This document shows positions 15,975-38,247 of a stretch of DNA of 40,399 bases, in pieces. Origin of the DNA: a virus. Position numbers and translations under genes: made by a program. The first letter of the stretch is position 1; every line of letters starts with the position of its first letter. The stretch spans positions 1 through 40,399 of the IMG/VR virus record IMGVR_UViG_3300030451_005542; one strand, written 5' to 3'. The notes under the pieces are model-generated. The model saw nothing but the letters and a program-made list of their open reading frames with translations. It searched no databases and was not told the DNA's origin.

Positions 15975-18900
15975 TTTCTAATTCTTTTAATATCTCTTTG
16001 TATTTTTTTTAATTCTTTTAATGGATCTTTTGATTTTTTAGTTTGTTTTTCTATCATACCTAATTCCCATTCACCCCAGCCAAGCGATAAAGCTATACCT
16101 TGCCATAATTCTGTTTCAGGCTGCATTGCTGTATATATGTGATCCATTTTTAATACTAAACGATCAGCAGGCAAATTTGTTCCAGCGGAGATTACTTTTC
16201 CAGCTGCTAAAAAAGCAGGGTTATCTAAACTAAATCCTTCTGTAAACACTTTTTCTTTTGATTGTTTATATGTAAATGTTTTACCAGCTGAAACAAGTTT
16301 TCTTAGTTTAGAATTTATAGGTGGTGATATTGCTGTTGCTTCTATTGCAACTTTAGTATAATCAGATCTAGACTTTTTAGCTTCTTCTATAGTTTTAAGA
16401 ATCATGTTTTTTACCGTAGCCGCTGCTGCTCCATATACACCTGCGCCTCTTAATAAAGTATCAACGCTACTATTACCTATTCTAAAGAATCTAGATTTTT
16501 TATCTTCATCTTCTTCATCGTCAAATAGTAAAGCAAATAATCCTTGTTGTAAAGCAGAGAATATTATATTTTGTATTACGCTATAATAAGCAATTTTACT
16601 AATATTTGTCTTCCAATCTCCGCGCCCATTAATTAAATCTAACGTAGCTTTTTTAGTTAAACGAGCATATTGCATAGGAGTGTTACCAAAAGCTAATATA
16701 AGACGTCCTAATGAGCCCGCTTGTTGCATAGATATTCTATCAGGCCTAGCAGATTGTTGTGTTTCTTCAGCTATTTCTTGAAAATCTGTAAATGCTCTTT
16801 GTTCTGCTTCTTGTTGACTTAATCCTTCTTTTTTATATTTATTAATTCTATTACGATAAAACGTAGCACCACCCGATGCAATAGCAAATGAATCAGCTAT
16901 TTGCGTTGGTGTAAATCCAAATTTAAGTATTGCCGCTAGCATTGCCTGCACTTGATTTTTAGATGTGGCGGCTGCTTTTGCAATTTCATCAGCATTTACA
17001 TCAGTCTGTAAACCAGAACGTCTTTGTTTTAAAAAGTCTGAATTAAATAATGTTGAAAAATCTTTTACATACTGCGGAAAATTAGCTAATGCTATACCCG
17101 CTGCAATAGGATTGTTATCGCTAAAGTTTATAAAGTTAACAGCTGATAATGTTTGAAGCACAGCAGATCTAGCATTAAAAAACATAATAGCACCTACAGA
17201 ATTGTTTGTCCAGGTTTGAAACTTTCTTTCTATATCGCTAGCATCTTTAAATTTATTTCTGCCTTTTTCCATACGATAAAGCATATTATCTAATGCTTTA
17301 ACATATCCTTCCCCATATAAAGCTTTTAATTTATTTTTATTTTGATCATTAAATATTTGATCAACATTTTCTTTCCATTGTGTTAAATATTCAGCTCGCT
17401 TTACGTCATTTATATAAGAAACTAAGTCTGTAGTAATATCACCGGCTATCCATTCAACAGATGGCGCGGGATAGCCTTCAGGATTTAATGCCATTAATTT
17501 TTCAGCAAAAGCTTTTAATTTAGAATTATTTTGAACTATTTGAACATTTTCTCTTATTTCTTTTGCCGCTATACCAGGTATATCGCTATTTTTTATACCT
17601 TGTTTTTTCCACATATAAACTCTTAATGAATTTTGATTTGTAAATCCAGCTTCATTAATTTTATTTAAACCACCAGGCACATCTTTTTTAGCTTCTTTTT
17701 TAAGGTTTTGCCAATTACGTAAAGCAACTTGTTTTGCTGTTTCATATTGTTGTATACCGCGAGAAAACGGCCTAAGCAAATTTTCTTCATACCATCTCAT
17801 TTGTTCATTACCACCTTGCTTTTTGGTGCCTAAAGTTGCATATAATAAACCTACAAAATCATCTGCTGAGTATGGTATAAAGAATTTTTTACCTTTTCCT
17901 TTACCCATTATTGTAGCTTTAACAGGTGAAAACTTTTCATAAAATGGAACGCCTGTAGTTTGTTCTAATAATTTATTAAATTCTTTACTTAATGATTTAG
18001 ATTCTTTTATAATAGACTGTCCGCTTGGGGATCCTATATTAAATAAATCAGCGGCGGTTTTATTTTCATTAAACGGAAATATAATATTTTTAGGATCAAT
18101 TCCTCCATCAATTTTAGCAACTTTTTCATTAAAATATCTTTGCCACCAATTTGTCCATTTATCTAAAAATTTTTTACTAAAACCTGCTTTTTCTAATTTT
18201 GAATTACTTGATGTATCAACAGCAATTATTTTATAATTTTCTTTTATTTCTGCTTTTTTCTTTTCAAAATTTTCTCTTTTTAGTATTGTGTTGATCAAAG
18301 CTCTATATGCGTTAGTTGATTGCATAGCATGCTCGTAATGTATTTTTTCTGCACCTATTTCATATGCTTCTAAAGGAGCCCACATTCTATGCGGATTTGT
18401 AACTTCATTGATTGAATTAGATAAAAAATACATAATAGGTACAGCTAAGCTTCTATCATTATCTATTGCTTTTTTAATATCATCCCAAAGTTTATCTCCT
18501 ACTGCTGTGTGTTTTTCATTCCATTTTTTAACTCTTCCATCTTCAAAAGCTTTTCCTAATTCTTTTAAATTTCTACCAAATGCTTGCGTTATTTTATTTC
18601 TACCTATAGTAACACGAGAAGCTAATACCCCCTCTTTTACTAACTTATTTAATTGTTTAGTTAATTCTTTTCTTGCATTACTATCAGGAAGAGCTTTTGC
18701 TGTAAATTGTAAAACAGATTTATTTAATACTTTATAATCTTCAGTATTAAATATTTTAGCCATTTTTCTAATATCATTTATAAAATTAGGAATATCATCA
18801 ATAGTTTCTAATTTATACGGAATTATATTATTATCTTCTAATATTTTTGAATCTTCAACTGGCAGTGAAAATTTAAAACCGATCGGTCTATCAATTATTT

Positions 18901-21900
18901 CGCTTAATTTATTTACAAAATTTTCAGGTAATTTTTTACCTTGTAATTCAGCTATATCTTTAGCTTTTTGTAAAATTGTAGGATCAGATAGAACTTCCAT
19001 AGTAGCATCAAACGCGAATGCTTCTGCAACAGCTTCTACTATTGCTGTTTTTCTTGTGCCCTGTGTAGATCTTCCTACGTCACTACCTAAAAAATATTTT
19101 ATAAATTCAGCTTTAGATATTTTTTTCTTAGTAAATATTTTATTACCCTCAGCTGTTTTTTCTCTTTTTTGCTTTCCATCTTTATCTAATACAGGCTCAG
19201 CAAATTCTTTTAATCTTTTATTAAATATAGACTGAGGTAATGAATTATATATTGTTTCAAAATTATCGCGTAAAAAAGATTCATATGCTTCTCCTTTACC
19301 AAATAATTTAGAAATAGGTTTTTTAAGTTCTGTTCTATATCTTTTTTCTAATTCCTTTTTAAAAGTTTTTTCATTAATATTAGGTAGCTTAGTACCAAAA
19401 GTTTTTTGAACAGCTGCAAAAACAACAGGTATTATTTCATCACCAATACCCATTTTTTTACGTAAACTTTTTAATTCTTCAGATGTTTCCTGTTCTTGTA
19501 TTTCTGTAGCCTCTTCTGTTGTTGTATCAGTAACGCTTTTAGCTTCTGTAACATCAAGTTTAAATTCAGTATCTAATATACGATTTGCCGCCTCAATTGC
19601 TCTTTTTGGTAATAAGCTATTTATGTAAGCAGCTAATGGAGCACCTTTTGCTTTTTCAGGGGTATAATCCATTATCATGTCAAGTATACCTCTTTTACCT
19701 GTTTCTATTTCATCTCTTAATAATTCAAATTCAAAACCAGGTACATCTTTATATCTGTTTACTATTTTATTTGTTATAGGTTTAAACTGATCTATTATAT
19801 CTAAAGCATTAGCCGCACCTTGAGATTCATATATTTCTTGTACTTTATCAGAAGATATTTTACGAGATTCTTTTCTTATTATACCTTTTACTTGTTCTTC
19901 TTTATTACCTATTAATTCTTCACTAATAATACGTCCTTCAAGCTTATCAAATCCTTGTGCTATTCTTATTTGCTCTTTAGTTAATGTGCCTTTATCTACA
20001 CTTTTATTTATATCTTTTATAAAGTTAATTACATCTTTTCCTGAATTAAATTTTGTTTTTACACCAAAAGCTTGTGTTAAAGATCTTATACCGTCTGATA
20101 TTTTATTACTTTTTAATGTAATATCGCCTGATCTTAATGCATCTGAAAATAAAGTTAAAGCCTCTTCAGCAGCTGTATTACTATCTATTTTAGGATCTTT
20201 TAAATATTCTTTTAATCTTTTTTTGTATTGAGAATTTTTTATATTATCAATATTTAAATTATTTAATTCTTCATTTAATGCAGAAGCTAGATTTTTAGCT
20301 AAAGTGGGATTTGATTTTAAAGATTTAAATAGTAAGGCGTGCATAAACTCATGGTTCGCTACATTGATGCCTTCACCTGTTTTAAATGCCTCATCAGAGT
20401 TTATTATTATTGTTTGTTTATTTGTATCTGGATTTTGTATTATAAATCCATAACTATTAGATCTTTTTTTATATTGATTTTTATTTTCTTGGCTTATATC
20501 ATTTTGATTATTTATAAATTCATTTATTTGCTCTTGATTATCAAATTTTTGTATTTCTAAATTATCAACATATTTAGCTGCTCTTTTTACTTTTTCTGTT
20601 TGTTTAGTTAATTCTTCTGCTCTTGCTCTTATATTAAATATTGTTTTTTCCGCATCAGATACTTCGGTTTCAAATTCAATTAATATTTTTGTTTTTGTTT
20701 CATTATCTAAAGACCTATCTTGATTAATTATTTTAGCTTTTTCACCTGCTATTTTTATTATTTCAGCTTGAGAATTTATTTCTTTAATCTGATTTTCTGT
20801 TAAAGAAAATAATATTTCATTATTTTTTTCAACATTTGCTTTTACTTCTTCTATTAATTTATTTTGTTTTTCAGAAATAACATTAATAGATTCTTGTGAA
20901 ATACCTTTTTTAAGTTTTGCTCTTTCTAAATTACCTATTTCTCCAACTATTTTTCTTAAAGAATCATATTCATCTTTATTTCTTAAATTAGCAGCTGTTC
21001 TTAATCCTCTAGCTCCTAAAACAATACCTGTTGATCCAAAAGCTCCTTGTAAAAAACTTTCGTATCCTTCTTTAGATGTCATAAATTTCCAAGCGTCCTC
21101 TTCTGCTTGTGTTTGACTTTTGCCTTCTGCTAATGATTTATTTATAGTTTCTAAACCAACATCAACCCATTCTTGTGTACCATTAAAACCTGTAGTAAAA
21201 GTAAGATCAACTATATTTTTAGTAAGTGAAGGACTTGATCCTAAAATAGATTTAGAAAGCTTATCTAATCCAATTTTTTCTAATTTATATCTAAGAGCAC
21301 CTATTGTTAAAGGAGTTGTTACTTCAAACATACCGCTTTCTTGTAACTGCTCTAAATTCATTCCTTTTACTTGGGCTAATGTTCTATTATGCTCTGCAAT
21401 AGTTTGTCCTATTATTTCAATACCTAATCCTACACCTGCTGTTGATGCAGATAAAATAGCACTAGAACCAACATTCATTATAGCATTAATAGCCCCACCA
21501 GCTCCATATATTATATTTTTACCAATACTTTTATCTTTTGAAATATCAGTAAATGCAAACGCAGGTTTTGTCAATGTAGCATACCTTTTAAGCTTAGCCT
21601 CTTGTTTACCTAACTCAGTTCTATTATGTTTTAAAACTTTATTTCCAAATTCTTCTCCAAATATATTATAAGCTATATCTGTATCAGATAAAATCATATG
21701 ATATAAATATTGCCCATAATCGTCTATTTGGGCAAATCTATTCATAGCTTGTCCAGTGCTATTAGCAATAGACTGTCTTAAAGTTTTAGGTTTTTCAGGA
21801 ATTTTTTTTCTTTGTTCTATTTCAGCTTTTGATATTCTTTGAGTTTCTTCGAAAGCGGTTATAGGCTTTAATTCACCCATATCTCTTTTTTCAATTTCTG

Positions 21901-22252
21901 GTATACCAAAATCAAGCAATACGTTTCTAGCAACTTCTGATTCTCTTTTATAATATTGATCAGCTGTAACTACAACTTCTTCTAATGGAACACTTGTTAT
22001 AGCCCATCCACCTTCTTCAAAAGGTTGACCGGTTAAAAGTATTTCACCTTCTTTTGTAAAACCCGAAGAAGTAACGCCCGGCTTGGAATCCGTATCGGGT
22101 GCTGCAGGATCCTTCACATCCGCACCCGTTGATGTGAGATTTGTCTTTCCCGGCTTTTCAGTTTCAGTTGCGCCGGGATTATCTTTTTTAAATTGATCTA
22201 CAATACTATCTGGAATATTATAAATCTCTTCATTTAATTTAAATATAGGCAT
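15971..22252 (-). CDS. Giant internal virion/ejection protein with HExxH motif, 2093 aa
   Basis: Begins MPIFKLNEEIYNIPDSIVDQ, a leader I associate with large ejected proteins of marine podovirus-like phages. After a Pro/Thr-rich linker, long helical and coiled-coil tracts follow (about 430-600). A zinc-metalloprotease-like motif HEFMH lies at 634-638, with a Glu pair at 696-697 (AAEEALTLFSD) as a possible third ligand. The C-terminal part has a hydrophobic stretch at about 1885-1908 and an acidic patch DDEEDED. It is probably packaged and ejected with the DNA. It is the longest-range candidate for a peptidoglycan or host-protein attack function, but no lysozyme domain is recognised. Confidence 0.7.
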   Translation of the reverse strand: MPIFKLNEEIYNIPDSIVDQFKKDNPGATETEKPGKTNLTSTGADVKDPAAPDTDSKPGVTSSGFTKEGEILLTGQPFEEGGWAITSVPLEEVVVTADQYYKRESEVARNVLLDFGIPEIEKRDMGELKPITAFEETQRISKAEIEQRKKIPEKPKTLRQSIANSTGQAMNRFAQIDDYGQYLYHMILSDTDIAYNIFGEEFGNKVLKHNRTELGKQEAKLKRYATLTKPAFAFTDISKDKSIGKNIIYGAGGAINAIMNVGSSAILSASTAGVGLGIEIIGQTIAEHNRTLAQVKGMNLEQLQESGMFEVTTPLTIGALRYKLEKIGLDKLSKSILGSSPSLTKNIVDLTFTTGFNGTQEWVDVGLETINKSLAEGKSQTQAEEDAWKFMTSKEGYESFLQGAFGSTGIVLGARGLRTAANLRNKDEYDSLRKIVGEIGNLERAKLKKGISQESINVISEKQNKLIEEVKANVEKNNEILFSLTENQIKEINSQAEIIKIAGEKAKIINQDRSLDNETKTKILIEFETEVSDAEKTIFNIRARAEELTKQTEKVKRAAKYVDNLEIQKFDNQEQINEFINNQNDISQENKNQYKKRSNSYGFIIQNPDTNKQTIIINSDEAFKTGEGINVANHEFMHALLFKSLKSNPTLAKNLASALNEELNNLNIDNIKNSQYKKRLKEYLKDPKIDSNTAAEEALTLFSDALRSGDITLKSNKISDGIRSLTQAFGVKTKFNSGKDVINFIKDINKSVDKGTLTKEQIRIAQGFDKLEGRIISEELIGNKEEQVKGIIRKESRKISSDKVQEIYESQGAANALDIIDQFKPITNKIVNRYKDVPGFEFELLRDEIETGKRGILDMIMDYTPEKAKGAPLAAYINSLLPKRAIEAANRILDTEFKLDVTEAKSVTDTTTEEATEIQEQETSEELKSLRKKMGIGDEIIPVVFAAVQKTFGTKLPNINEKTFKKELEKRYRTELKKPISKLFGKGEAYESFLRDNFETIYNSLPQSIFNKRLKEFAEPVLDKDGKQKREKTAEGNKIFTKKKISKAEFIKYFLGSDVGRSTQGTRKTAIVEAVAEAFAFDATMEVLSDPTILQKAKDIAELQGKKLPENFVNKLSEIIDRPIGFKFSLPVEDSKILEDNNIIPYKLETIDDIPNFINDIRKMAKIFNTEDYKVLNKSVLQFTAKALPDSNARKELTKQLNKLVKEGVLASRVTIGRNKITQAFGRNLKELGKAFEDGRVKKWNEKHTAVGDKLWDDIKKAIDNDRSLAVPIMYFLSNSINEVTNPHRMWAPLEAYEIGAEKIHYEHAMQSTNAYRALINTILKRENFEKKKAEIKENYKIIAVDTSSNSKLEKAGFSKKFLDKWTNWWQRYFNEKVAKIDGGIDPKNIIFPFNENKTAADLFNIGSPSGQSIIKESKSLSKEFNKLLEQTTGVPFYEKFSPVKATIMGKGKGKKFFIPYSADDFVGLLYATLGTKKQGGNEQMRWYEENLLRPFSRGIQQYETAKQVALRNWQNLKKEAKKDVPGGLNKINEAGFTNQNSLRVYMWKKQGIKNSDIPGIAAKEIRENVQIVQNNSKLKAFAEKLMALNPEGYPAPSVEWIAGDITTDLVSYINDVKRAEYLTQWKENVDQIFNDQNKNKLKALYGEGYVKALDNMLYRMEKGRNKFKDASDIERKFQTWTNNSVGAIMFFNARSAVLQTLSAVNFINFSDNNPIAAGIALANFPQYVKDFSTLFNSDFLKQRRSGLQTDVNADEIAKAAATSKNQVQAMLAAILKFGFTPTQIADSFAIASGGATFYRNRINKYKKEGLSQQEAEQRAFTDFQEIAEETQQSARPDRISMQQAGSLGRLILAFGNTPMQYARLTKKATLDLINGRGDWKTNISKIAYYSVIQNIIFSALQQGLFALLFDDEEDEDKKSRFFRIGNSSVDTLLRGAGVYGAAAATVKNMILKTIEEAKKSRSDYTKVAIEATAISPPINSKLRKLVSAGKTFTYKQSKEKVFTEGFSLDNPAFLAAGKVISAGTNLPADRLVLKMDHIYTAMQPETELWQGIALSLGWGEWELGMIEKQTKKSKDPLKELKKIQRDIKRIRK

Positions 22253-24496: not shown

Positions 24497-24820
24497 TTAG
24501 TTACTACTTATATTTACTTCAGAATTAACAGCAAATAATTCTGATGTGTCTGTTGACGTGTTTTCTAAAGTTACAGTGGCATGATAACCAAGTAATCCAC
24601 TAGTATTTATTACGTTATTTTTAGCAAACATAAAGAAGCTATTACTAGTGGGCCTTATGTTTGTATCTGGTATATCAGCTACTAATGATAATCTATCTGA
24701 CGCAATGCTTTTGCATTCGCCTAATTCTGCTATATCACCATCTTTTTCAAAATAAACTATATCGCCTATTTGTAAAGATTGGTTTATTGTGTTTCCAAAT
24801 GTTATTGTTATATCTGCCAT
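24497..24820 (-). CDS. Hypothetical structural protein, 107 aa
   Basis: A small, mostly beta-strand acidic protein (ITITFGNTINQSLQIGDIVYF, then AELGECKSIASDRLSLVADI), ending in a Ser/Asn-rich tail. No family is recognised. It lies between the 395-residue Ig-like protein and the Gln/Ala-rich internal protein, with a two-base gap on each side, so it is probably made with virion parts. Confidence 0.6.
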   Translation of the reverse strand: MADITITFGNTINQSLQIGDIVYFEKDGDIAELGECKSIASDRLSLVADIPDTNIRPTSNSFFMFAKNNVINTSGLLGYHATVTLENTSTDTSELFAVNSEVNISSN

Positions 24821-24822
24821 AA

Positions 24823-26010
24823 TTATCCTGATCCTCCGGGTCTTAACATGTTTCTAATATTATTTAAATTTTGATTAGCACAAGAAACTGCAGCTTCCCA
24901 GTTTGTGTTGTCTAATGGAGCATAAATATATAAATATGCTTTTGTTTCGGTGCTAGTTTTATTCCATTGATGAAAAAGTCCTTCATTACCTGTTCCGTAT
25001 ATTTGATCACTTACTACCGTTGAAGCTGGTAAACCTTTTCGCGCTAAAGCAGTATTTACTTGTGTTTGGTAAGTTGATGGAGATCCTGCTGTTACATAAC
25101 CTGTATCAATTTTAACTTCATTACCATGAACTAAAACAAACCTATCGGGTATATTAATTGCATTCGCATAAAGTTCTGCGGATCCTGTAGCTGAACCAAT
25201 TTCAACTTCAATTTTATGTGGAAAAATTTGGCCACCAGTAAAATAAGCAACTGAAGAGCAAGCTCCAAATGTTTGGTCAGGAGTTGCAGCATCAGGAACA
25301 GAAGTGCCGTCAGATAATGATGTTATTGGTTTTACTGTATTTTGTTTTATTTTTTCTTTAGTAGTTATTAAAAATTTACCTTTATAATAATAATCTATAT
25401 AAACATCAGCAACTCTATCGCTTCCTGTATTATTTTCAGCTACATTAAAAGGAGCTTGTGTACCTTTTACAACAACCTTTTTAACTCCATCACTATCTTT
25501 TTCAAGTTCAACAACACTTGCTGCTGTTAAGTTAAGCGTAATCCAGCTTGCGTCAGTTCGTGCTTTCCACGTAATATTAGCATCCCATCCTATAGGTGAA
25601 GCGTCTAATTCAGGTGTAATATAACCAGAACCTGCAGTACCGTAAAATTCATCTAATTGGCCATTATTTTTCTTTTTATACATAACTGTTCCCCATGAAT
25701 CTGTATCAAAGCTAAATTGTGAGGGGCTAAATATTCTATTATCATCAATAACAAAATCATCGGGATCAAGCACCCCATCACCGTCAGTGTCAGGAATTGG
25801 AGGCGGTTTTAAAATTACTATTGCTTTTTCAACAAATACTTTTAATATAGCTTTTGCTTCATTAAAATTTGAAGTAGCAGCTTGAGTAACTTCTATTTCA
25901 CCTGTACCTACACCATTAATACTTATCGTATTTCCTGTTACAGAAACAATATTATTATTTAGTGATTTAAATGTGAAAGATCCGGGACTATTTGATGATA
26001 TTATTGCCAT
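24823..26010 (-). CDS. Virion protein starting with the rest of a split Ig-like domain, 395 aa
   Basis: Residues 1-65 (SPGSFTFKSLNNNIVSVTGN, then ISINGVGTGEIEVTQAA) are the remaining strands of an MBG/Big-type Ig-like domain whose first strands end the preceding 2296-residue protein. Residues 74-85 (DTDGDGVLDPDD) match a thrombospondin-type-3 Ca2+-binding repeat. The rest is beta-rich with two long strand-like segments and ends RNMLRPGGSG. Separated from the 2296-residue gene by only five bases. A role in tail/appendage assembly or receptor contact is inferred. Confidence 0.65.
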   Translation of the reverse strand: MAIISSNSPGSFTFKSLNNNIVSVTGNTISINGVGTGEIEVTQAATSNFNEAKAILKVFVEKAIVILKPPPIPDTDGDGVLDPDDFVIDDNRIFSPSQFSFDTDSWGTVMYKKKNNGQLDEFYGTAGSGYITPELDASPIGWDANITWKARTDASWITLNLTAASVVELEKDSDGVKKVVVKGTQAPFNVAENNTGSDRVADVYIDYYYKGKFLITTKEKIKQNTVKPITSLSDGTSVPDAATPDQTFGACSSVAYFTGGQIFPHKIEVEIGSATGSAELYANAINIPDRFVLVHGNEVKIDTGYVTAGSPSTYQTQVNTALARKGLPASTVVSDQIYGTGNEGLFHQWNKTSTETKAYLYIYAPLDNTNWEAAVSCANQNLNNIRNMLRPGGSG

Positions 26011-26015
26011 TTTAT

Positions 26016-29000
26016 TTAAGATGTTGTTATTGTAAAATCAGGATCATCTGAAAATTTATTTTGATCTGTTATTGTTAAAACAGGATCTGCTTTTCTAACT
26101 TTTAGCTTTGCTGTTTGTAATCCAGCATTAAACTTACCGGGTACTTCAGGTGTTGAAGCGGTTATTATAGTATCTCCAGCGCCAACTATTGTAACTATAT
26201 TTCCAGAAATTGTAGCTATAGATGAATTGGCTATACTAATTGAAACTGCTGCACTACTATTTGATGTAATATTTAAAGCAAAATTAGGGTCACCAAAGGT
26301 TTTTACTATATCATTCATATTAAATGTTACATCTTTAGGAGGAGGGCATTGTTCAACGCTTTTAATTCTTTCTATACCTCTTCTACGATCTGTACTATTA
26401 CTAACTAATGTTATAACTAAATTAGCTCCGTTAACTTTATATGTATTTTCTAAAAGATGCGATCCTATTGAAAATCTTTGAAAGCCAAGTCTATCTGTTA
26501 CATAATCTCCAACAGCTGGTGTTTTTCTAAGCGGGTCTATTGGATATAATCGGCCAGCTATTGCTCTTCCTGTAGTATCGCATCCACCTTTTGTTAAACT
26601 TATAAAATATCGACCAAAATATCCTGTACCAAAATATTGTGTTTTTAAATCAACTTCTATTTTACCTAATTGTTTAGCAGGTACAGAATTTATATTTGCT
26701 AAAGTATTTACAGTTAGTTCAGTTCTTGCATCGTTTAATTCAATTTGCCCTGCAACAGTTACACTATTACCATTAATATCAGTATATGTACCAGCAGTTG
26801 CAGCACTAAGCTCAGCATCTTTTAAATTAATAACATGACCTGTTGTGGTAAATATATATTGATAACAGTTTATATCGTTTCTATCTAATATAAAAGTTTT
26901 TTGAAATAAAAAGTTTTGATTAGCGCTATTAGTTAAAGTACCTTGCAATTTAGATGTAGTAAATTTTTCATCACTTGGATCTGTAAATTCATATAGTATA
27001 CTATAATTTGGTACTATATTTACTGATTGTGCTATTTGTTTTTTAGGCCTAACACTTATTGTTTTATTAGCAACAGGTAAATTAAAATCTTTAGATAAAA
27101 AACCAACTTTTAATAAATTATTATCTAAAACAACTTTTATTTTATCATTCAAAGCATATGTTGATGTTACAACATTACTTCCGTCTGTTATTTCAAAATC
27201 TGCTCCGTTTACAGTTGGTATAAATTCAAAACCCGATGAAGGCGTTAAAGTAAATAAATATTCTTTTAATGCTGGTGCTAATAAACCAGCAGCACCTGTT
27301 ATTGTAAAGTCGGCCGAATCTGTATAATTTGTTGTAGCTGCACCACCTAAAATAGTATTATTATATTCTATTGTTAAAACAACTTGATTATTTATTATTT
27401 TATCAAGTATTAAAACAATTTTATTATCTGTAGTTATATCATCAATGGCAATATCTCCTGTTAGCGTTACAGTATGATTACCTTGATTAAATACCATTTT
27501 TAAATTAGATAATACAGTTGAATCTAAAGTATTATCAAATATAAAATCACTAGGTGTTGGTTGTCTTAAAACTGTATATGTTGCCGTAGGTAAAGTAATT
27601 ACTTGTGTAAAAGAATTTGCAACATTAGAATTTAAAAAAGCTTGCGCTTTAACTTTATTACTTACAGTTGAACCAAACTGTGAAAATAGTGTAACCGTTT
27701 TTGTAACTACTGCAGGTCTTGCAATTGCTGTAGACCCTGTACTTATTGCAGGTGCTAATTCACTTTCATTGCCTGGTGATATATTTATATTAAAAGTTTC
27801 TGATGTGTCAGCTAAAGGAAATTCAATATCTTTTTCATAAAGACCGGTTGGAGGTATTTCAATATTTCTTTCGCTTTCAATTTCAGCAGATGTATCTGAT
27901 AGTTTATAGCTAAATGTTGCGCCAGGATCACCATATACTGATAAAATCCTATCAAAGTTTTTTGCAGTTATGTTAGATTTATCAATTGATATTGAAGAAA
28001 TTGATTTCTTTTGTATAGGTTTTTCAACTGCAAAAGCACTTATTTCATAATTAGCAACAGTAGTTGTGCTTGGTATAGATATTTTTTCAGTTAATGTTAT
28101 ACTACCGTCAGAATTTTTTGATTTAGTTAATCTAATTAAAGGATTATTTACGCTAATATAAGCAGGAACAATTTGCCATCCGTCATCAGGTGTTATAACT
28201 CTAGTTACAATAGTTTTTATTACCTTTTCATTACCTGAAAAAGAATAAGAACCGTTATTTACTGTCGATGTTACATTAGTTAAATTTACTGTATAATTAC
28301 CAGATATTGTAATATCTTTTTTAGCAGCAAAATCAATTTTACAAAGTTCAATTAATTTAGACGTATTTCTAGTAGGTTGCGTTTTTATACCATGTGTATA
28401 TGCTAGCTTTACATTATCACCGTCTTGTGTAGCCACAACATTTTTTAAATTAAAATTATTAGCATTTAAAGAATAACCGCTTTTAGCAAAAACTTTTAAT
28501 TCAACTGTGTCATTTAATTTAGACCCAGGTGCGCCCGTTACAGATATTCTATTAGAATTATATTTATCTGTTTCAATAGGTGATAATTCAAAAGTAAGTG
28601 TTGTATTTGATATAGCAGATACAGAAGATATAGATGTTGCAGTACCAATACCTTGAAAATTAAAGTTTTTAGGGTCTATATTATCTACACTTTTTGCTTC
28701 GCCATTTACAAAAGCAAAATATTTATTTTCTTTTTCTTTAAAAGTTATAGTGCTCGATTTTTGTTGATCTGTTACTATATTAGCTGTCCATCCCGTAGTG
28801 CCTTCATAACCTAAAGTTTTATAGCTTTTAATAACTGAAGGATCATCATTTATTTCAAGTATAATTTTAGAATTATATTGCTGACCATAAAAGTTATTAT
28901 ACGGAACAGTATCATTATCGTGTAGCCACATTTCACCCGTGTTATATGTATAATATCTATTATTAAGAGATATACCAAATTGTGGAATAAATGATTTTCT

Positions 29001-32000
29001 AGTTGGCCAGCCGTTTGCGGCTTCATCAAAACATACTGTATCTCTTCCTATAAACGATAAATTATATAAACTATTATAATCATCATATGAGCCTATAAAA
29101 TAACTATTATCAACAGTTGAATTAAAACAACCCGTATCAAAAAATCTATCATTAAAAAAGTCGGCCATTAATATTTTATTAATAGGCGTTAGTCCATCTT
29201 TTGAAAGCCTTAATACAGCACCTCTAGTTTTATCTGCAAAATAACATCTAAAACCATAAGATGCAAAAGATTCTGGGTTTTGTGATATACCATATTCTCC
29301 ATTATAAGGCTGCGTTGCACCAATAACTTTATTTGTTGCAACAATATTTGGATTGCCGTCAGCATTAAATAATATATCTTTATCAGCAAGAGCTCTTATA
29401 ATTTTATCTTCACAAAGAATTACAATACTATCATCCCATGCATGTAATTTTTGTATGCTGCCATAAGAAGGTAATAAATCTTTTGTTATTGGATTTGCTA
29501 CATTAAATTCATTTGATCTATTTATTCCGCTTCTTGAATTAATAATACCAGACCAAATTAATCCATTAAACCTATGCTCTTCTTTAAATTGCTCAGATAT
29601 TACAGAAGAAGCTTTTACACCAACATCTATAAACGGTGCGTTAAAATCATCTCTTATTCTATTAGATTCAACACCATTACCAAAGCTAAAACAATTAAAC
29701 CATTTTAAAGTTTTAGCATTACCGTGATCAGCTATATCAAATGCTTTTTCCGTTTCATAATACAAATCTAAATCCGTAATATTTTCAACAGGTTCAGTTT
29801 CAAATATAGCAGGATTAGAAGGAGATAAAACCTCATTATCATTAATTTCTTGTAAAAAACTTATTGTTAAGGTTTTTTCTTTGTCACCTGGCTTAGGAAT
29901 TAAAAAGCTTGCTATGGTGTATTTATTATCGTCTAAAGTTCTAAAACCTACAGATTTTTGAGTTATATTACCTTTTCTTTTATTAGTTGGTTTTACATTA
30001 TCTAATAATCTTTCATTACCAACAAGTAATTTTACAGGAGTATCAATATCATTAATTTTAACTACAGCACCCGTTTTAAATAAATCTATAAATTCATTAC
30101 TTTGTGTATTAGACGTTTCTTCTATATCAAATGCATACTTAGTAGCATCAAAATTTTTACTAGGCTGTGTTATAAATATTGGTTCTTTTGGACTATCTAA
30201 TGCTTTATTTCTAAATCTTAATCCTTTTCTGATACCAGGAGAACCATCTAATTCTAATACTTCTTTAATAGCATAATTTTTGCCACCAACTAATTGCTTG
30301 CTATTGTCTTTTAATAATTCGTTATCTTCAACTTTAACAAAAAACTTTCCATCAAATTCTTTATCACCTTTGCTGCCCTCTGTTTTATATACTTCCATGC
30401 CAATATTAGGCTTAAGCGTTTTATTAGAGTCAGTATCATACAAAGCATTTACGTCATCTGTAAAAGAAGTTTTAAATACTATTTCACCTGTAGTTAAATT
30501 ACCAGGTGAATTTGTTTTAAATCTAACTGAAGCTATTTCATAAAATTGAGTTTTATCAATATCTACTGTAAATTTTATATAGTTACCTGGCTTTAAAAAT
30601 GCTTTAGCTTCATCTGAAATACCCGCAGTATTATTATCTAATTTTTCTATTAATATTTTTAAATTATCTTTTACAGGTGTTTTTCCTTCTGTAGCACCAG
30701 TAATAGTACCACCATCATCAGTAGTTCCGTCACCTAAAGCTTCATCAAATTTAATGTCTTGAAATGTAGTTTGTAAATTTTTTCTAAAAGCTACAAAATC
30801 AGGTGCTTCATTAAATATTTCAATTACTTTATACCTGTTTCTTATATCAATTACAGGTTCATCGCTTCCATGCTCTTTTTTAAGAACTAAATAAGTTTCA
30901 TTAGTTATTTTATTTCTTTCCGAAGATGGAAAAGCAATATAAGAAAAGCCATTTTCTTTATCTGTATATATTCTATCAGCAGCTAAATTGTAATATTCTT
31001 TTGAAATATCTTTAATATAATATTTATAATATTTAGCCCAAGCCGGTGGTGTACTAGTTACAGCTATATTAAACGCACTTTCATTAGCACATTTATCTTT
31101 ATTTACTTTTATAGATCCTGATTGACTTGATATAACTGGTGAATGTCTATTATATTCATCAATATATACTACACCTATTTGATAAGTTCTATCTGATTTT
31201 ATAGAATGCTTTGATTTATCATTTCTTTGATTTAATTTTATATCAAATGTAGGGTCATTATATATATCATAATTTTGTGTATAATTACCATATATAATTC
31301 TGTTAGCTGTTATTTCTTGTGCCTTAGCTTTTTTAGGCACGTTATCCCAAGCTCTTAATAATTGGTCATTAGGTAATACAGAATGTATTTGTTTTTTTGT
31401 TATTTCATATGTACCTGCAAAATCTATTTTCTTTTCGGATTTAAGTGTATATACATTTTGATTTCTTGTTTCTTTAAATAATATTTCAATTTCTTCAACA
31501 TTATCAGTTCCTAAATCAAAATCAGATAAAATAATTTTTCTTAAATTATTTTCCATTGCTGTATTAAATCCTTTTTTACCATCATATTCAAACCCATCAT
31601 TAGGAATAAAAGCAACTTCAGAAAAAGGCGCTATTGTAGAATACTCGCCATCTCTATATTTCCATCTATAAGAAAATCTAACAAAAGTTAATTCATATAT
31701 AGGTTTACTTTCAAGTAATGTTATTGTTACATCATAATTACGAGATGTTTCAAATATTATGTTTTTAGATTTTAAAGTTAATGTTATTGAATTAGTAGTT
31801 TTTGATTTAACAAATGCAACTACATCTAAATCCTCTTTTGTATTATCAGGATTATTATTTTCTTCAATAGTAACTTCAGCGTTTAGCTCCCAGGGTATTT
31901 CAGAAGTAACTGAAATAGTTATATCGTCTCCTATATCTAATGGCTGTCCATTTAAAGCAAAACTTAGTGCAGGTTCATTTATTTCAGAAACGCCATCAAT

Positions 32001-32906
32001 CAACGTTTCTGATAAAGCTAATGTAGGAGCATACATAGGCGCTTTCTTTGCAACCGATAAATCTTCTTCTGTAAAATCTCTTTCTTTTTTTATTATGTTG
32101 CCATTAGAATCTTTTTCTGAAAAAGTAACTTTTGTTTGAGCATTAAAAATTTTATTGCTAAACTTTTTAAAATTTGCAATATTTATTTTTCTAGGAGCAT
32201 TTAAATTATCTGTCCAAAAAAGTAAGTCATCAATTATATTAATGCCTGTTATAAGATTATTTTTTGAAAAATTTAGTATACCACCTGAAGTATATGTAAA
32301 TGGTAAAGTAACGTTGCCTAAGTCTTGGCCGTTATATTCTATATTTTTAAATACAAATTTATTTTCTTCTTTTCTAAGTGTTGTATTTTTTGGTATAGTT
32401 ACTTTTATAAAAGGATTTGAAGATGATAAGCTTAAATTATTATTTATTAAAACTTCATCATTATTATTTAAAGGAACATTACCACATAATGCTTTTAATT
32501 CATCTGCATTAACATCATCTAAAGTTAATTCATTTTCATTATTAGCTTCTACAGTAACTCCTTTTAAAGTTGTATTTCCAACTACTTTTGTATCTATTAT
32601 AATTGGTAATACAACATTTTGTTTTTCATCATATTCATATATACCGTCTATATTATCAGAAGTTACAATCCAATATATTTTATCTTTTAAAGTATATGCA
32701 ATACTACCTAATACAACAGCATTTTTTAAATTTAAATCTGATATTTTTTTATTTCCTAATAAATTTTCAACAGCACCTACATCAGAGCCTTCTGATGAAG
32801 ATACTTGAATATTTAAAGCATCTCGATACGAACCATTTTCTACTAATCTTTCGTCTCGGTCTTTATCCATCCTTCCGGATACAAAAGTATGCTTTAGTTC
32901 TGCCAT
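26016..32906 (-). CDS. P22 gp10-like stabilisation protein with Ig-like C-terminus, 2296 aa
   Basis: The N-terminus (AELKHTFVSGRMDKDRDERL, ENGSYRDALNIQVSSSEGSD, VGAVENLLGN) is typical of the packaged-DNA stabilisation/tail protein family related to P22 gp10. The middle (about 1050-1300) has the same beta-propeller-like pattern (RFNGLIWSGIIN, SYGSIQKLHAWDDSIVIL). Many beta-sandwich-like repeats follow. Residues about 2199-2279 form a full MBG/Big-type Ig domain (FGDPNFALNITSNSS; SIATISGNIVTIVGAGDTII). A second copy begins at about 2273 (DQNKFSDDPDFTITTS) and is cut by the stop; the remainder starts the next gene. It probably closes the portal and carries host-binding domains. Confidence 0.68.
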   Translation of the reverse strand: MAELKHTFVSGRMDKDRDERLVENGSYRDALNIQVSSSEGSDVGAVENLLGNKKISDLNLKNAVVLGSIAYTLKDKIYWIVTSDNIDGIYEYDEKQNVVLPIIIDTKVVGNTTLKGVTVEANNENELTLDDVNADELKALCGNVPLNNNDEVLINNNLSLSSSNPFIKVTIPKNTTLRKEENKFVFKNIEYNGQDLGNVTLPFTYTSGGILNFSKNNLITGINIIDDLLFWTDNLNAPRKINIANFKKFSNKIFNAQTKVTFSEKDSNGNIIKKERDFTEEDLSVAKKAPMYAPTLALSETLIDGVSEINEPALSFALNGQPLDIGDDITISVTSEIPWELNAEVTIEENNNPDNTKEDLDVVAFVKSKTTNSITLTLKSKNIIFETSRNYDVTITLLESKPIYELTFVRFSYRWKYRDGEYSTIAPFSEVAFIPNDGFEYDGKKGFNTAMENNLRKIILSDFDLGTDNVEEIEILFKETRNQNVYTLKSEKKIDFAGTYEITKKQIHSVLPNDQLLRAWDNVPKKAKAQEITANRIIYGNYTQNYDIYNDPTFDIKLNQRNDKSKHSIKSDRTYQIGVVYIDEYNRHSPVISSQSGSIKVNKDKCANESAFNIAVTSTPPAWAKYYKYYIKDISKEYYNLAADRIYTDKENGFSYIAFPSSERNKITNETYLVLKKEHGSDEPVIDIRNRYKVIEIFNEAPDFVAFRKNLQTTFQDIKFDEALGDGTTDDGGTITGATEGKTPVKDNLKILIEKLDNNTAGISDEAKAFLKPGNYIKFTVDIDKTQFYEIASVRFKTNSPGNLTTGEIVFKTSFTDDVNALYDTDSNKTLKPNIGMEVYKTEGSKGDKEFDGKFFVKVEDNELLKDNSKQLVGGKNYAIKEVLELDGSPGIRKGLRFRNKALDSPKEPIFITQPSKNFDATKYAFDIEETSNTQSNEFIDLFKTGAVVKINDIDTPVKLLVGNERLLDNVKPTNKRKGNITQKSVGFRTLDDNKYTIASFLIPKPGDKEKTLTISFLQEINDNEVLSPSNPAIFETEPVENITDLDLYYETEKAFDIADHGNAKTLKWFNCFSFGNGVESNRIRDDFNAPFIDVGVKASSVISEQFKEEHRFNGLIWSGIINSRSGINRSNEFNVANPITKDLLPSYGSIQKLHAWDDSIVILCEDKIIRALADKDILFNADGNPNIVATNKVIGATQPYNGEYGISQNPESFASYGFRCYFADKTRGAVLRLSKDGLTPINKILMADFFNDRFFDTGCFNSTVDNSYFIGSYDDYNSLYNLSFIGRDTVCFDEAANGWPTRKSFIPQFGISLNNRYYTYNTGEMWLHDNDTVPYNNFYGQQYNSKIILEINDDPSVIKSYKTLGYEGTTGWTANIVTDQQKSSTITFKEKENKYFAFVNGEAKSVDNIDPKNFNFQGIGTATSISSVSAISNTTLTFELSPIETDKYNSNRISVTGAPGSKLNDTVELKVFAKSGYSLNANNFNLKNVVATQDGDNVKLAYTHGIKTQPTRNTSKLIELCKIDFAAKKDITISGNYTVNLTNVTSTVNNGSYSFSGNEKVIKTIVTRVITPDDGWQIVPAYISVNNPLIRLTKSKNSDGSITLTEKISIPSTTTVANYEISAFAVEKPIQKKSISSISIDKSNITAKNFDRILSVYGDPGATFSYKLSDTSAEIESERNIEIPPTGLYEKDIEFPLADTSETFNINISPGNESELAPAISTGSTAIARPAVVTKTVTLFSQFGSTVSNKVKAQAFLNSNVANSFTQVITLPTATYTVLRQPTPSDFIFDNTLDSTVLSNLKMVFNQGNHTVTLTGDIAIDDITTDNKIVLILDKIINNQVVLTIEYNNTILGGAATTNYTDSADFTITGAAGLLAPALKEYLFTLTPSSGFEFIPTVNGADFEITDGSNVVTSTYALNDKIKVVLDNNLLKVGFLSKDFNLPVANKTISVRPKKQIAQSVNIVPNYSILYEFTDPSDEKFTTSKLQGTLTNSANQNFLFQKTFILDRNDINCYQYIFTTTGHVINLKDAELSAATAGTYTDINGNSVTVAGQIELNDARTELTVNTLANINSVPAKQLGKIEVDLKTQYFGTGYFGRYFISLTKGGCDTTGRAIAGRLYPIDPLRKTPAVGDYVTDRLGFQRFSIGSHLLENTYKVNGANLVITLVSNSTDRRRGIERIKSVEQCPPPKDVTFNMNDIVKTFGDPNFALNITSNSSAAVSISIANSSIATISGNIVTIVGAGDTIITASTPEVPGKFNAGLQTAKLKVRKADPVLTITDQNKFSDDPDFTITTS

Positions 32907-32909
32907 GAA

Positions 32910-33797
32910 TTAGTGTTTGATTTGTTTAGATTTACCTCTAAGCGTTTGAATAATTTCTTCAGGACTAAGTTGTGCTAATCTAAGTTTTGCATTTCGTATA
33001 GCGGCTCTTCTTTCTTTTTTAATTCTATTTATTTGATATTCAGGTATATTTGATTTAGCAGCCGCTAAACCATACATTATACATTTATATAATGCTTCTT
33101 CTGCAAATTTATGTACCTTCATATCGTCGTCAGCATGTAGCCCATCTGATATATATTTTAAAACTATAAACTTATCTTTTAAGCTACTAGTAAAATTTAT
33201 TGTACCAGTTAATTCATTTATTGTATAAAACCCGTTTCGTGTTGCATGCTGTGGATCTAAACCATATCTTCTTCCATAATCAACATTATAACCATAGCCT
33301 TCTTCTAAAAAGTCTGTATTAGCATCGTCTTGTATATCAGGTTCAGTGCTTTCTTTAAATCTTGTTCTTGATTCAGATGTTGAAGCATATAAAGGAAAAC
33401 CTTCATTATCAGTTAAATAATTATAATTACTGTCTTGCAAAATAGCAAAAGGTTCATCTGTTAATCTAGCTGGTTTTATAATTTGGTGTAATCCTGTATC
33501 ATCAACAAAACTTACTTCAACCATTTTTACGTAATCATGTGGTAATGACATTGATAAAGATGGTGGTAATTCTATTTCTTGACTTTTAATATTACCTAAA
33601 GTATCATAATTAAGTTCAGCTATACCTCTTTGAGCATGATATAAAACTTCTGCTCTTTTAGCTTTTTTAATTATTTTATCATCTCCTACATGAGAAACAA
33701 TAAAGTTATTTATTATATCTCCCATAGATATAAATTGGTAAATGCCTTTATCACTAGATGTGTAATGTACTGAAGGAATAACTTTAGCTAATGCCAT
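32910..33797 (-). CDS. Head-tail adaptor/connector-type structural protein, 295 aa
   Basis: Family not recognised for certain. The N-terminal half has IYQFISMGDIINNFIVSHVG and LPHDYVKMVEVSF, and the C-terminal half a helical segment (KFAEEALYKCIMYGLAAAKS, INRIKKERRAAIRNAK). Such mixed beta/helix proteins between the capsid genes and a gp10-like protein often form the connector ring or tail adaptor. This is inferred from order: MCP, two unknowns, this gene, gp10-like. It ends RGKSKQIKH. Confidence 0.6.
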   Translation of the reverse strand: MALAKVIPSVHYTSSDKGIYQFISMGDIINNFIVSHVGDDKIIKKAKRAEVLYHAQRGIAELNYDTLGNIKSQEIELPPSLSMSLPHDYVKMVEVSFVDDTGLHQIIKPARLTDEPFAILQDSNYNYLTDNEGFPLYASTSESRTRFKESTEPDIQDDANTDFLEEGYGYNVDYGRRYGLDPQHATRNGFYTINELTGTINFTSSLKDKFIVLKYISDGLHADDDMKVHKFAEEALYKCIMYGLAAAKSNIPEYQINRIKKERRAAIRNAKLRLAQLSPEEIIQTLRGKSKQIKH

Positions 33798-33800
33798 TTA

Positions 33801-34532
33801 TTATGATTTTTCTTGAGTTATTTTTTTATTTTCTTTAGCATCAGCAACTTGAATTATTTCAGGCTGCTTGATTACTAATCCAGCATATGTTAATATTTTA
33901 TTAACCAATGCGGTTTCTTCTGATGGATGTAGCTCGTAATCTTGATAATCTGCTGCAGCAGGATTATATAATGCAACACCATTAACTTCAAAAGATGTCC
34001 AATTAACTTCAGCGGGTTTTTTAACATATGAACACTGAATAGTATCAACTATAGAACTAGGATAAACAGTTAATGAATTACCGTCTCTAAGATATATAGG
34101 ATAACTTGTTGATGGACTTGTAAGTGGAGAATTATTTATATAAATAAATTCATTTGTTGATACTGGTTCAATTTCACAAGTTTCTGTTGTTGTACTTCCT
34201 GTATAAGTTGAAGTACCTGATTTAGTATATTGTACAGTACCTAATCTATATAAATTATTTGGTAAAGTATATTTACCTGAAGAAATAGTTAAATTAAAAT
34301 TTACAATTTTAAATAAATCAATTTTTTCTTTTATGTTTTTTACAATATTTGCGTATTCATTATTTATTTCGCCTCTACGATTATATTGATTTAAATCATA
34401 AAAATATTGTTCAAATATTTCAAGTTGTGCTTGATTAGCTAATAAATTATATTCTTGTGGCGTCATATAACCTCTATTCTCTTTATTGAGAATGGCTAAT
34501 ACTCTTTGATAAACTTTATCTACGCTAACCAT
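33801..34532 (-). CDS. Putative connector/ring structural protein, 243 aa
   Basis: The N-terminal helix (VYQRVLAILNKENRGYMTPQ, EYNLLANQAQLEIFEQYFYD) resembles head-completion and adaptor proteins, followed by beta-rich sequence with a Thr/Ser-rich loop (KSGTSTYTGSTTTETCE) and SYVKKPAEVNW. These features fit a ring protein below the portal. The C-terminus has the helix LHPSEETALVNKILTYAGLV. Its gene is preceded by the hairpin at 34549-34583 and followed by the adaptor gene with a three-base gap. Confidence 0.6.
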   Translation of the reverse strand: MVSVDKVYQRVLAILNKENRGYMTPQEYNLLANQAQLEIFEQYFYDLNQYNRRGEINNEYANIVKNIKEKIDLFKIVNFNLTISSGKYTLPNNLYRLGTVQYTKSGTSTYTGSTTTETCEIEPVSTNEFIYINNSPLTSPSTSYPIYLRDGNSLTVYPSSIVDTIQCSYVKKPAEVNWTSFEVNGVALYNPAAADYQDYELHPSEETALVNKILTYAGLVIKQPEIIQVADAKENKKITQEKS

Positions 34533-34548
34533 ATGTTTTTATTATTTA

Positions 34549-34583
34549 TAGTAATAGGGCCACTCTTAGCGACCCCATCACTA
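34549..34583 (-). terminator. Minus-strand RNA hairpin between the 258- and 243-residue genes
   Basis: On the minus strand, a 16-bp stem with a three-base loop (TAGTGATGGGGTCGCT, AAG, AGTGGCCCTATTACTA) forms with four G-U pairs. The G-U pairs would be A-C mismatches on the other strand, so the fold belongs to the minus-strand RNA. No T run follows it (TATAAATAATAAAAAC), so it may act as a processing or stabilising element rather than a plain terminator. It begins eight bases after the upstream gene's stop. Confidence 0.6.
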
Positions 34584-34591
34584 TAGAATGA

Positions 34592-35368
34592 CTATTTTAG
34601 TTTCTTTTCAATTGTTTTATAAACTTCGGTTCCTTCATCAGTTTTAAACCATGCCGCTAATGCAGAATAAGGATTTTCATCAAATGGTATTGTAAATAGT
34701 TTTCTATTATTAGTACCCCAATGCCACGATCTTTGATCTTCTGACAATAAAATTATAGCTTCTTCTGTTGCTTTAATTCCGAAGTTTCTTAATTGCACAT
34801 TATCATCTTCTGCTAGTTGTAGAAAAAGATCTGGATTGTTTTTTGCAAATAATAATATATCTCTTTTAATTTCTTGAGAAGACATATTAGAAACTTTATT
34901 TCCTTGATCAACTCTTAATACAGCTTCTGCATGATCTATATCCATTTGCTTAGCCATATTTAAAGCTTGTATTTCTAATTCTAAATCAAATAAATCATCT
35001 TTAGCTTCTTCTACTGCATCTAGTTCTTCATAGAATACATTTTTGCCTGGATGATATAATGATAATAATTTTTGTAATGATTGATTTGTTTTTGGCACGA
35101 ATAAAACACCGTCCCTAAAAACAATATGCCCTAATGTTGCTCTACCTTTTTGTTCATCAACAAATGGTGATTTTTGATTAGTAGCATATCTTAATTCTCT
35201 TGAATAACCTTTTTCTTCATCCCACCACATTAAAGGTGTTCTTGAATGATGCCTTGAAGCTAATCTAAAAGTTATAGGCTCTTTATTTCCTTTAAGAGCG
35301 TAAGATCTATCTTTTAATACCCATGATTTTTGGGCTTGTGGCTTTTTAGCCGTAGTTTTTGTTGCCAT
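34592..35368 (-). CDS. Hypothetical capsid-region protein, 258 aa
   Basis: An unrecognised protein starting with a basic Lys/Thr/Ala-rich tail (ATKTTAKKPQAQKSW) and ending with aromatic and Lys-rich segments. The middle has a helical, acidic part (FYEELDAVEEAKDDLFDLEL). No membrane segment. It sits directly after the MCP and its terminator-like hairpin, and before the ring-type gene, so it is likely a minor virion protein or a head-completion factor. Function is inferred from position only. Confidence 0.6.
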   Translation of the reverse strand: MATKTTAKKPQAQKSWVLKDRSYALKGNKEPITFRLASRHHSRTPLMWWDEEKGYSRELRYATNQKSPFVDEQKGRATLGHIVFRDGVLFVPKTNQSLQKLLSLYHPGKNVFYEELDAVEEAKDDLFDLELEIQALNMAKQMDIDHAEAVLRVDQGNKVSNMSSQEIKRDILLFAKNNPDLFLQLAEDDNVQLRNFGIKATEEAIILLSEDQRSWHWGTNNRKLFTIPFDENPYSALAAWFKTDEGTEVYKTIEKKLK

Positions 35369-35395
35369 AATATAATATAATAAAAATGATTAAAA

Positions 35396-35432
35396 GTAAA
35401 GGTAGGAGTACCCGAAGGTACCCCATCTTTAC
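35396..35432 (-). terminator. UUCG hairpin after the major capsid gene
   Basis: In the minus-strand RNA, GTAAAG ... CTTTAC forms an outer stem and GGGGTACC pairs with GGTACTCC around a UUCG tetraloop closed by C-G (loop at 35413-35416). A T-rich tract (TTTTAATCATTTTTATT) follows. It lies eight bases after the MCP stop. A terminator just after the capsid gene, with leak-through to later genes, is well known from T7 (T-phi); here it is a likely analogue. Confidence 0.7.
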
Positions 35433-35440
35433 ATTAAGTA

Positions 35441-36913
35441 TTAAGCTACTTGAGAAGCAGTCTTAAATAATACGAAGTTGTTAGCTCCTTGAACACACAG
35501 ACATCTTTCAGATAAGAAGTGTACATTCATTTCATCAACGTCAGAAGTATAAACTCCACCTACAGATCCAGTGATCCAAGATTTCATTTTTCTATCATCA
35601 GCTTCAGAAGCACGATAACGCACGTGTAAGAATGGTCGCTTAATATTTTTACCAAGCTGTTGATCGTATACTGTTGAAGTACCAGCAGGTACAAGCACAC
35701 CATCAATGTTACCACCTAAACCACGAGTTGTTGCATCGTTTAAGTATTTCCAGTCAGTTTTATAAAAGTCATAAGAACCTCTTCTAAAACCACTAAATCC
35801 TAAATTAAGTGCCATATCCTCACTATTATTAAATACACCAAAAGATGTACCACCATTATAATGAGCATTAACAGCTCCTAACATATCATCAAAAGTTAAA
35901 GCAGTAGCTCTATTTAAGAAAAGCATATTTTCCTCAATAGCACCTTGCTTATCTAAATTCTTAAGAATCTCATCAAAATCTTGTAATCCAGATCTTGCAG
36001 AACCGTCAGAGTTATCTAATGCATCTTCACCTGAGTTGAAGTTTTGATAGATGTTTCCTCTTGACTCAATAGCTGCAAACATACCTTCAGTACCTTTAAA
36101 GTTATCTCCTATAGCACCAGATCCAGTAGCAGCAAGCTCACCTTCAACCATTGCCATTTCAAGATAGTCTTCAAATCTTAATCTTGTTTCATGCTCTGAT
36201 TTTAAATACCATAAATATCCTGAAGCTCCATTTTCAGTTGTTACCTCAACCCAGCCAATTTGCGCAGTATCAGAACCAGAGATAGAATATTTATCTTTTA
36301 GAATGATAGGCGAATTGCTAAATTTTTGGAATCCAGCATCAATAGAACCAGCCATACCCGCAGTTCCTTTTAAAAATTCAGAACCATAAACGAATACTTT
36401 AACAGTAACAGCACTACCTGAAGTAAGTCCAGCAGCAGTTAATGTAGCACCACCATAAGCTTTTACAGTAAATGTATTAGTAGCTACAGCAGTAACGACA
36501 CCTTTAACTACTTTATCAGCAGTCCAAGTAACACCATCATTAGGATGTGTACCAGCTTCAATAATAGCAACAGTCTGTCCAATTCTAACTGCGTGACCGT
36601 TTTCAGTAATCACACCAGATGTTGTATTAGCAGATGCACTATCATAAGCTATATGTAATCTTCCTTGTTCAGACCAAATAATTTGATCAGAAGCAGAAGG
36701 AATCTCAGCACCAACCATACGAAGGAAAGAACCTATAGATCTGTTTCCATATCTTTCAACTTCTTTTTCGTATACGTCGGGTAAAAATTGTTGTGCAAAC
36801 GTTCCACCTCCTGAGGCAGAATCAAATGTTAGGTAGTTTGTACCAAACAACGTTTTAGTTGGGGCAGGCGTTAATCCAGCTGGAAACGCACCACCCGTTG
36901 AAAATAATCCCAT
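35441..36913 (-). CDS. Major capsid protein, HK97-fold type, 490 aa
   Basis: Long beta and helical composition with Gly-rich loops; the N-terminal region has LPDVYEKEVERYGNRSIGSF, and the C-terminal SDVDEMNVHFLSERCLCVQG, both of which I associate with capsid proteins of podovirus-like marine phages. A low-charge, Ala/Gly/Thr-rich composition with no membrane segment fits an assembled coat. The gene follows the acidic scaffold-like gene and the portal, the usual order. It is the likely most abundant late product, consistent with the strong hairpin after it. The fold is inferred, not shown. Confidence 0.75.
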   Translation of the reverse strand: MGLFSTGGAFPAGLTPAPTKTLFGTNYLTFDSASGGGTFAQQFLPDVYEKEVERYGNRSIGSFLRMVGAEIPSASDQIIWSEQGRLHIAYDSASANTTSGVITENGHAVRIGQTVAIIEAGTHPNDGVTWTADKVVKGVVTAVATNTFTVKAYGGATLTAAGLTSGSAVTVKVFVYGSEFLKGTAGMAGSIDAGFQKFSNSPIILKDKYSISGSDTAQIGWVEVTTENGASGYLWYLKSEHETRLRFEDYLEMAMVEGELAATGSGAIGDNFKGTEGMFAAIESRGNIYQNFNSGEDALDNSDGSARSGLQDFDEILKNLDKQGAIEENMLFLNRATALTFDDMLGAVNAHYNGGTSFGVFNNSEDMALNLGFSGFRRGSYDFYKTDWKYLNDATTRGLGGNIDGVLVPAGTSTVYDQQLGKNIKRPFLHVRYRASEADDRKMKSWITGSVGGVYTSDVDEMNVHFLSERCLCVQGANNFVLFKTASQVA

Positions 36914-36935
36914 TTGTAATTAATTTTAAAGATTG

Positions 36936-38216: not shown

Positions 38217-38247
38217 GATATAATATTATAAAATTAGTATGATTGGG

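Follow-up and report, generated by a model that had tools for sequence, protein, structure and literature searches.

We analyzed the window, a 40,399-nucleotide stretch that constitutes one metagenomic contig (IMG/VR virus record IMGVR_UViG_3300030451_005542), with a focus on two neighboring minus-strand genes, P0001 and P0002. Residues 1335-1400 of P0001 matched the Pfam family PF25729 (crAss_MUZ_C; 2.1e-9, 38.1 bits), which exceeds the curated cutoff of 27, and the protein matched phrog_14478 at 1.7e-135. In tblastn searches, residues 1-1421 matched virion proteins of Cellulophaga phage phi38:1, Flavobacterium phage elemo and Maribacter phage Panino. The portal gene (phrog_6547) and virion protein genes lie at 32910-40383, followed by the muzzle gene and then by P0005, P0004 and P0003, as in phi38:1, and the window thus follows the order of portal, capsid, ring-type genes, muzzle and cargo. 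The family match, the matches to the three cultured phages and the gene order together place the P0001/P0002 junction at the C terminus of a giant muzzle protein. The adhesin extension of P0001 had no tblastn match in cultured phages. Searched by sequence against the PDB, neither of the two proteins nor the muzzle alignment gave a useful match, so that no solved homologue was detectable by sequence against which to set the hexameric tail tip, a propeller plus a crass fold, that characterizes crAss-like muzzles. The features of the region are as follows:

26016-32906, minus strand: P0001, giant crAss-like muzzle protein with a C-terminal adhesin extension, 2296 aa (open reading frame, PF25729, phrog_14478, tblastn)
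28647-32906, minus strand: muzzle core, P0001 residues 1-1420 (alignment with the muzzle proteins of phi38:1 and elemo; matched by profile in about 80 loci)
28590-28679, minus strand: first piece of the muzzle terminal domain, P0001 residues 1410-1439, positions 1-33 of the fused-type profile (profile match)
26337-28589, minus strand: adhesin extension, P0001 residues 1440-2190 (absent from phi38:1-type muzzles)
26091-26327, minus strand: MBG1, a complete MBG/Big_2-type Ig-like domain (MBG profile positions 2-79, 76 bits; AlphaFold2; Foldseek)
26022-26081, minus strand: first part of MBG2, C terminus of P0001 (MBG profile positions 2-21; modeled as extended and unpaired)
26011-26018, minus strand: stop codon TAA (26018-26016) and the 5 nt that separate it from the ATG (identical in L002; TAATATG in L006 and G001)
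24823-26010, minus strand: P0002, 395-aa tip protein whose start lies in the middle of a domain (open reading frame)
25993-26007, minus strand: AIISS, second occurrence of a strand, over profile positions 18-21 (MBG profile alignment)
25825-25998, minus strand: remainder of MBG2, N terminus of P0002 (MBG profile positions 22-79)
25390-25572, minus strand: BACON-like domain of P0002 (weak match in the window, 0.034; above the Pfam cutoff in the G001 orthologue, 1.3e-5)
24880-25263, minus strand: C-terminal domain of P0002 (common to Xanthomonas phage XacN1 and the fused muzzle of L009)
24497-24820, minus strand: P0006 ("END"), 107-aa protein with the remainder of the terminal domain of the muzzle, fused-type profile positions 29-133 (profile match)

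Elsewhere in the window, a 2093-aa cargo-type protein (15971-22252) contains HEFMH, an HExxH motif of the kind typically found in zinc metallopeptidases. The left arm encodes a tRNA-Met (1371-1444), a Sigma-70-like protein (4174-4917), a primase/helicase (6524-8239) and the small and large subunits of ribonucleotide reductase (11121-12089 and 12542-14284).

P0001 ends in FSDDPDFTITTS, followed by TAA, a 5-nt gap and, at 26010, the ATG of P0002, whose N terminus reads MAIISSNSPGSFTF. To place these ends within a domain, we used an MBG profile of 79 positions built from 202 repeats in 33 loci of the genome collection, nearly all from Bacteroidota. The P0001 tail covered profile positions 2-21 and the P0002 head positions 22-79, and the same division was found in the relatives L006 and G001. 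Joined, the two halves of the window scored 61.5 bits over positions 2-79; apart, the P0002 head scored 51.0 bits and the P0001 tail a weak 6.9 bits. MBG2 was therefore not complete within one polypeptide; MBG1 gave a full-length match. In the repeat alignment, all host repeats carry on past the point at which P0001 stops. An AlphaFold2 model of P0001 residues 2184-2296 (mean pLDDT, 90.5) showed MBG1 as a confident beta fold and the half-domain tail as extended and unpaired. The best Foldseek matches of MBG1 were Big_2-type and SraP (adhesin) domains, with E values of only about 2e-3. The P0002 model was weak (pLDDT, 59.7), and its detail was not interpretable. Judged by the profile, the split between P0001 and P0002 cuts through a single Ig-like domain.

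The first-pass annotation, made from the letters alone, had described this anatomy (a stop in the middle of an MBG domain, a 5-nt gap and a next open reading frame carrying the remaining strands), and it is confirmed at 26016/26010; its proposal of a gene split through one Ig-like domain is borne out by the profile halves and by the four contigs described below. It had also claimed that a strand is repeated at the break, and this held in part. The two 15-mers lie where they had been placed and are identical at 11 of 15 positions, and the first residues of P0002 (MAII; MSII in relatives) lie over profile positions 18-21, a stretch that is also part of the P0001 match. In the operon, however, 11.8% of randomly chosen places had a best 15-mer match of at least 11, so a duplication of the strand as DNA, which the annotation had suggested from this match, is not supported, the match being no better than chance. 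The residue similarity of FTITTS and AIISS was unremarkable in our contig (44% of windows were equally good) and high in L006 (0.8%); across muzzle/END boundaries, residue-level strand duplication had a median rank of 17% and was unconvincing as a general rule. On the profile alignment, the repeat holds only positionally, as an overlap.

The terminal domain of the muzzle is divided as well. A domain of about 100 residues is intact at the muzzle end in phi38:1, in elemo and in seven IMG/VR relatives. In the window, its two pieces are separated by 857 residues of P0001 and the whole of P0002, and PHROG family 18548 independently spans both pieces. In the window and the 15 genomes tested, muzzle tails matched the first 18-38 positions of the fused-type profile, and END open reading frames matched from about position 27 to position 133. 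By these profile matches, the muzzle terminal domain is also cut, with its pieces in P0001 and P0006. Among the 57 loci of the tree described below, 48 were of kinds with a separate END open reading frame (the L006 contig ends before END) and 9 were fused. The adhesin formed one or more separate open reading frames in 32 of the 48, where the muzzle usually ends with the first piece of its terminal domain; no locus combined muzzle, adhesin and END as one chain. In L027 (14290-14450), the muzzle/ORF2 boundary falls inside a Big_9 Ig-like domain, the muzzle tail LDPNTEF being followed by a 1-nt gap and MALTYILVED; ORF2 matched positions 35-89 of 89 and the joined sequence positions 3-89, with a modest gain of 4 bits. 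At the level of profile matches, this is a further independent case of a split Ig-like domain.

Several other arrangements were observed among the relatives. The muzzle core lies in two open reading frames in L158 (13361-17318) and L163 (17956-22123), broken at profile positions 815/844 with a 10-nt gap, and in Panino (L004) the annotated muzzle consists of two parts, 946 aa and 320 aa, that lie 110 nt apart. L053 and L063 have an open reading frame of unknown kind (301/302 aa) between the adhesin open reading frames and END, and L063 also has a 348-aa open reading frame that, by eye, resembles radical-SAM proteins in having a cysteine cluster (NAACWFCP).

We then considered how the P0001/P0002 boundary is read. 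The window is one metagenomic contig, and a sequencing or assembly error could have created a false stop and start, an artefact that the first-pass annotation had kept as an alternative. The split is, however, common to the window, L002, L006 and G001, four contigs from independent assemblies whose muzzles are only about 76% alike at the extremes. The L002 junction is identical to that of the window over 54 nt, and the junction DNA differs in the other two: L006 has GDPNFTITINQP, TAATATG and MSIITSNSPG, and G001 has GDPDFTITINQP, TAATATG and MSIIKSDSPG. Because four independent contigs carry the same split, an error is excluded as its source, and we regard this explanation as extremely improbable. 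Further viral scans aimed at additional split relatives yielded these contigs and no others. A fused protein could also arise by programmed frameshifting, readthrough or hopping, and phage tail genes offer a precedent: Ig-like domains of tail tube proteins are often gained by programmed frameshift, as in SPP1 (PMC9022992). Relative to P0001, however, the start of P0002 is in frame -1 for the window and L002 and in frame +1 for L006 and G001; open stretches overlapping around the P0001 stop span only 4-9 codons; and no slippery heptamer was found at the junction. In 39 relatives, the muzzle/ORF2 boundary was mostly stop-N-ATG, yet its offsets took all three phases. Since relative frames differ even among close relatives, a single conserved programmed frameshift is excluded, and a fused product made by any of these routes appears very improbable. 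The frameshift that the annotation had entertained is refuted on the same grounds, and the simplest reading is that a coupled stop and start yields two separate chains. Compared with the SPP1 type, the likeness is an Ig-like domain at a change of reading frame in a tail gene; the differences are that here the domain itself is cut, rather than the sequence ahead of it, and that the frame relation is not conserved (PMC9022992).

Fused versions in related phages, which the first-pass annotation had suggested looking for, are present in L009, L010 and L015. In L009 and L010 (54% identical in the muzzle), a single open reading frame of 2676 aa continues through TSP3 repeats into BACON-like and C-terminal domains of the P0002 type, and L015 has a fused muzzle of 2832 aa. 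In a quick LG+G4 tree of the muzzle core (57 rows), the four split genomes formed one starred clade (100) within a starred group (99) that also held L015 and L009, and this group sat among other fused giants. As the nearest outgroups are fused, the split is a derived gene fission. With fused outgroups and complementary halves in the derived clade, the genome comparison establishes gene fission into complementary polypeptides.

The half-domains were then compared among the split genomes. The ratio of nonsynonymous to synonymous change was below 1 in both halves where it was computable (P0002 head, 0.15-0.80; P0001 tail, 0.26-0.64), with few substitutions; between the window and L002, the P0001 tail had 4 nonsynonymous changes and 0 synonymous changes. 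Both half-domains diverge faster than the muzzle core between subclades. The P0001 tail, 23-25 residues after a KA linker, keeps a DPxFTIT motif in 4 of 4 split genomes, and the adhesin is strongly diverged between subclades (dN, 0.3). In P0002, the first 64 residues are near-alike between the window and L002 (dS, 0.10) and the residues beyond are far apart (dS, 0.59), with 97% identity between the muzzle genes; a recombination boundary thus likely lies directly after the half Ig-like domain. Further along P0002, the BACON match (PF13004) scored 14.6 bits in the window against a cutoff of 25 and 25.5 bits in the G001 orthologue, and residues 250-377 are 36.6% identical to a protein of the jumbo Xanthomonas phage XacN1.

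These observations can be arranged into a candidate mechanism. An ancestral fused muzzle-adhesin gene would have split inside its last Ig-like (MBG) domain. P0001, P0002 and P0006 would be made side by side, P0001 and P0002 from the coupled stop and start, and the products would rejoin noncovalently on the virion by fold complementation, through a strand swap or a donor strand. The muzzle chain would keep the first two strands of MBG2 (A-B), and the other strands, at the N terminus of P0002, would be completed by strands A-B of P0001. The P0002 copy of strand B may let its half fold before docking, and the tip (P0002, with its BACON-like and C-terminal domains) would be a plug-in module on the muzzle. 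In chaperone-usher pilins, donor-strand complementation fills an incomplete Ig-like domain with a strand supplied by another chain. Donor-strand-style completion would fit the anatomy of the break, with the differences that P0001 and P0002 have no chaperone, that another part of the fold is concerned (strands A/B, not G) and that complementation here is inferred.

The fission itself is established by the complementary halves in four genomes, the fused outgroups, the lack of a conserved frameshift and the second mid-domain cut, all read from sequence. On balance, we lean slightly toward the muzzle adhesin and the tip being separate, translationally coupled chains rejoined by fold complementation, the binding being the inferred part. 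In favor of complementation, MBG1 folds confidently and the half-domain tail is modeled as extended without a partner (AlphaFold2, single chain); against it, the strand B that P0002 itself carries might allow it to fold independently of P0001. The main rival takes up the latter point: fission without complementation, in which P0002 folds alone by means of its own strand B and docks elsewhere or loosely, leaving the P0001 tail as a vestige. The coverage of positions 18-21 by P0002, besides 22-79, and the faster evolution of both half-domains speak for it. A vestige would, however, be expected to decay or shorten, and DPxFTIT is kept in all four genomes despite the divergence of the adhesin; we consider this rival rather unlikely. 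Alternatively, P0002 could have nothing to do with the muzzle and be a diffusible or cargo protein, its half-domain likeness having arisen by recombination at the gene boundary. Adhesin cassettes of this operon are clearly exchanged, and open reading frames vary widely in size and number, as such a history would have it; but the P0002 tail belongs to the muzzle polypeptide in L009, and the MBG2 halves are complementary to within one residue, which makes this explanation improbable. Beyond the preferred reading of coupled chains rejoined by complementation, we propose tentatively that marine crAss-like phages could have a tail tip of several chains with joints inside beta domains (Ig-like between muzzle and tip, terminal between muzzle and END), the split domains serving as noncovalent sockets that would accept adhesin cassettes of any size and leave the muzzle core undisturbed.

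Among known proteins, gp44 of phi-crAss001 (PMC10172136) resembles P0001 in its Pfam family (PF25729), in its place between the ring genes and the cargo genes and in collinear profile matches at both ends. It is one chain of 1371 aa, whereas P0001 has an adhesin extension of about 860 aa, a terminal domain finished by a 107-aa open reading frame and a last Ig-like domain finished by another. The fused-type profile gave no significant terminal-domain match to gp44; by eye only, the last ~30 residues of gp44 resemble the END tail. The muzzles of Callevirus phi38:1 and of Elemovirus share a homologous core and terminal domain with P0001 but are single chains of 1324 and 1470 aa without the adhesin insert and with the terminal domain intact. 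The closest evolutionary mode appears to be insertional gene fission into complementary polypeptides, as for cox2 in Campsomeris, where inserted DNA lies between the two complementary genes and the products are thought to form a heterodimer (PMC5374615). That case concerns a mitochondrial enzyme; here, a single phage operon contains two such cuts, both within beta domains, and the DNA inserted at the second cut codes for an adhesin. The open-licence literature that we searched does not describe a split muzzle, and virion mass spectrometry data for the clade were likewise not found.

The identity of P0001 as a crAss-like muzzle, the existence of fused versions and the cut terminal domain all go beyond the first-pass annotation. 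In phage tail operons, gene boundaries are usually assumed to match protein folds, and here two conserved boundaries cut beta domains. The open reading frames of about 107 aa with no known function that follow the adhesins are accounted for as missing muzzle pieces. If the halves bind, the split domain would be a natural exchangeable joint for receptor-binding modules, which would bear on how tips diversify in crAss-like phages and might offer a natural split-Ig tag.
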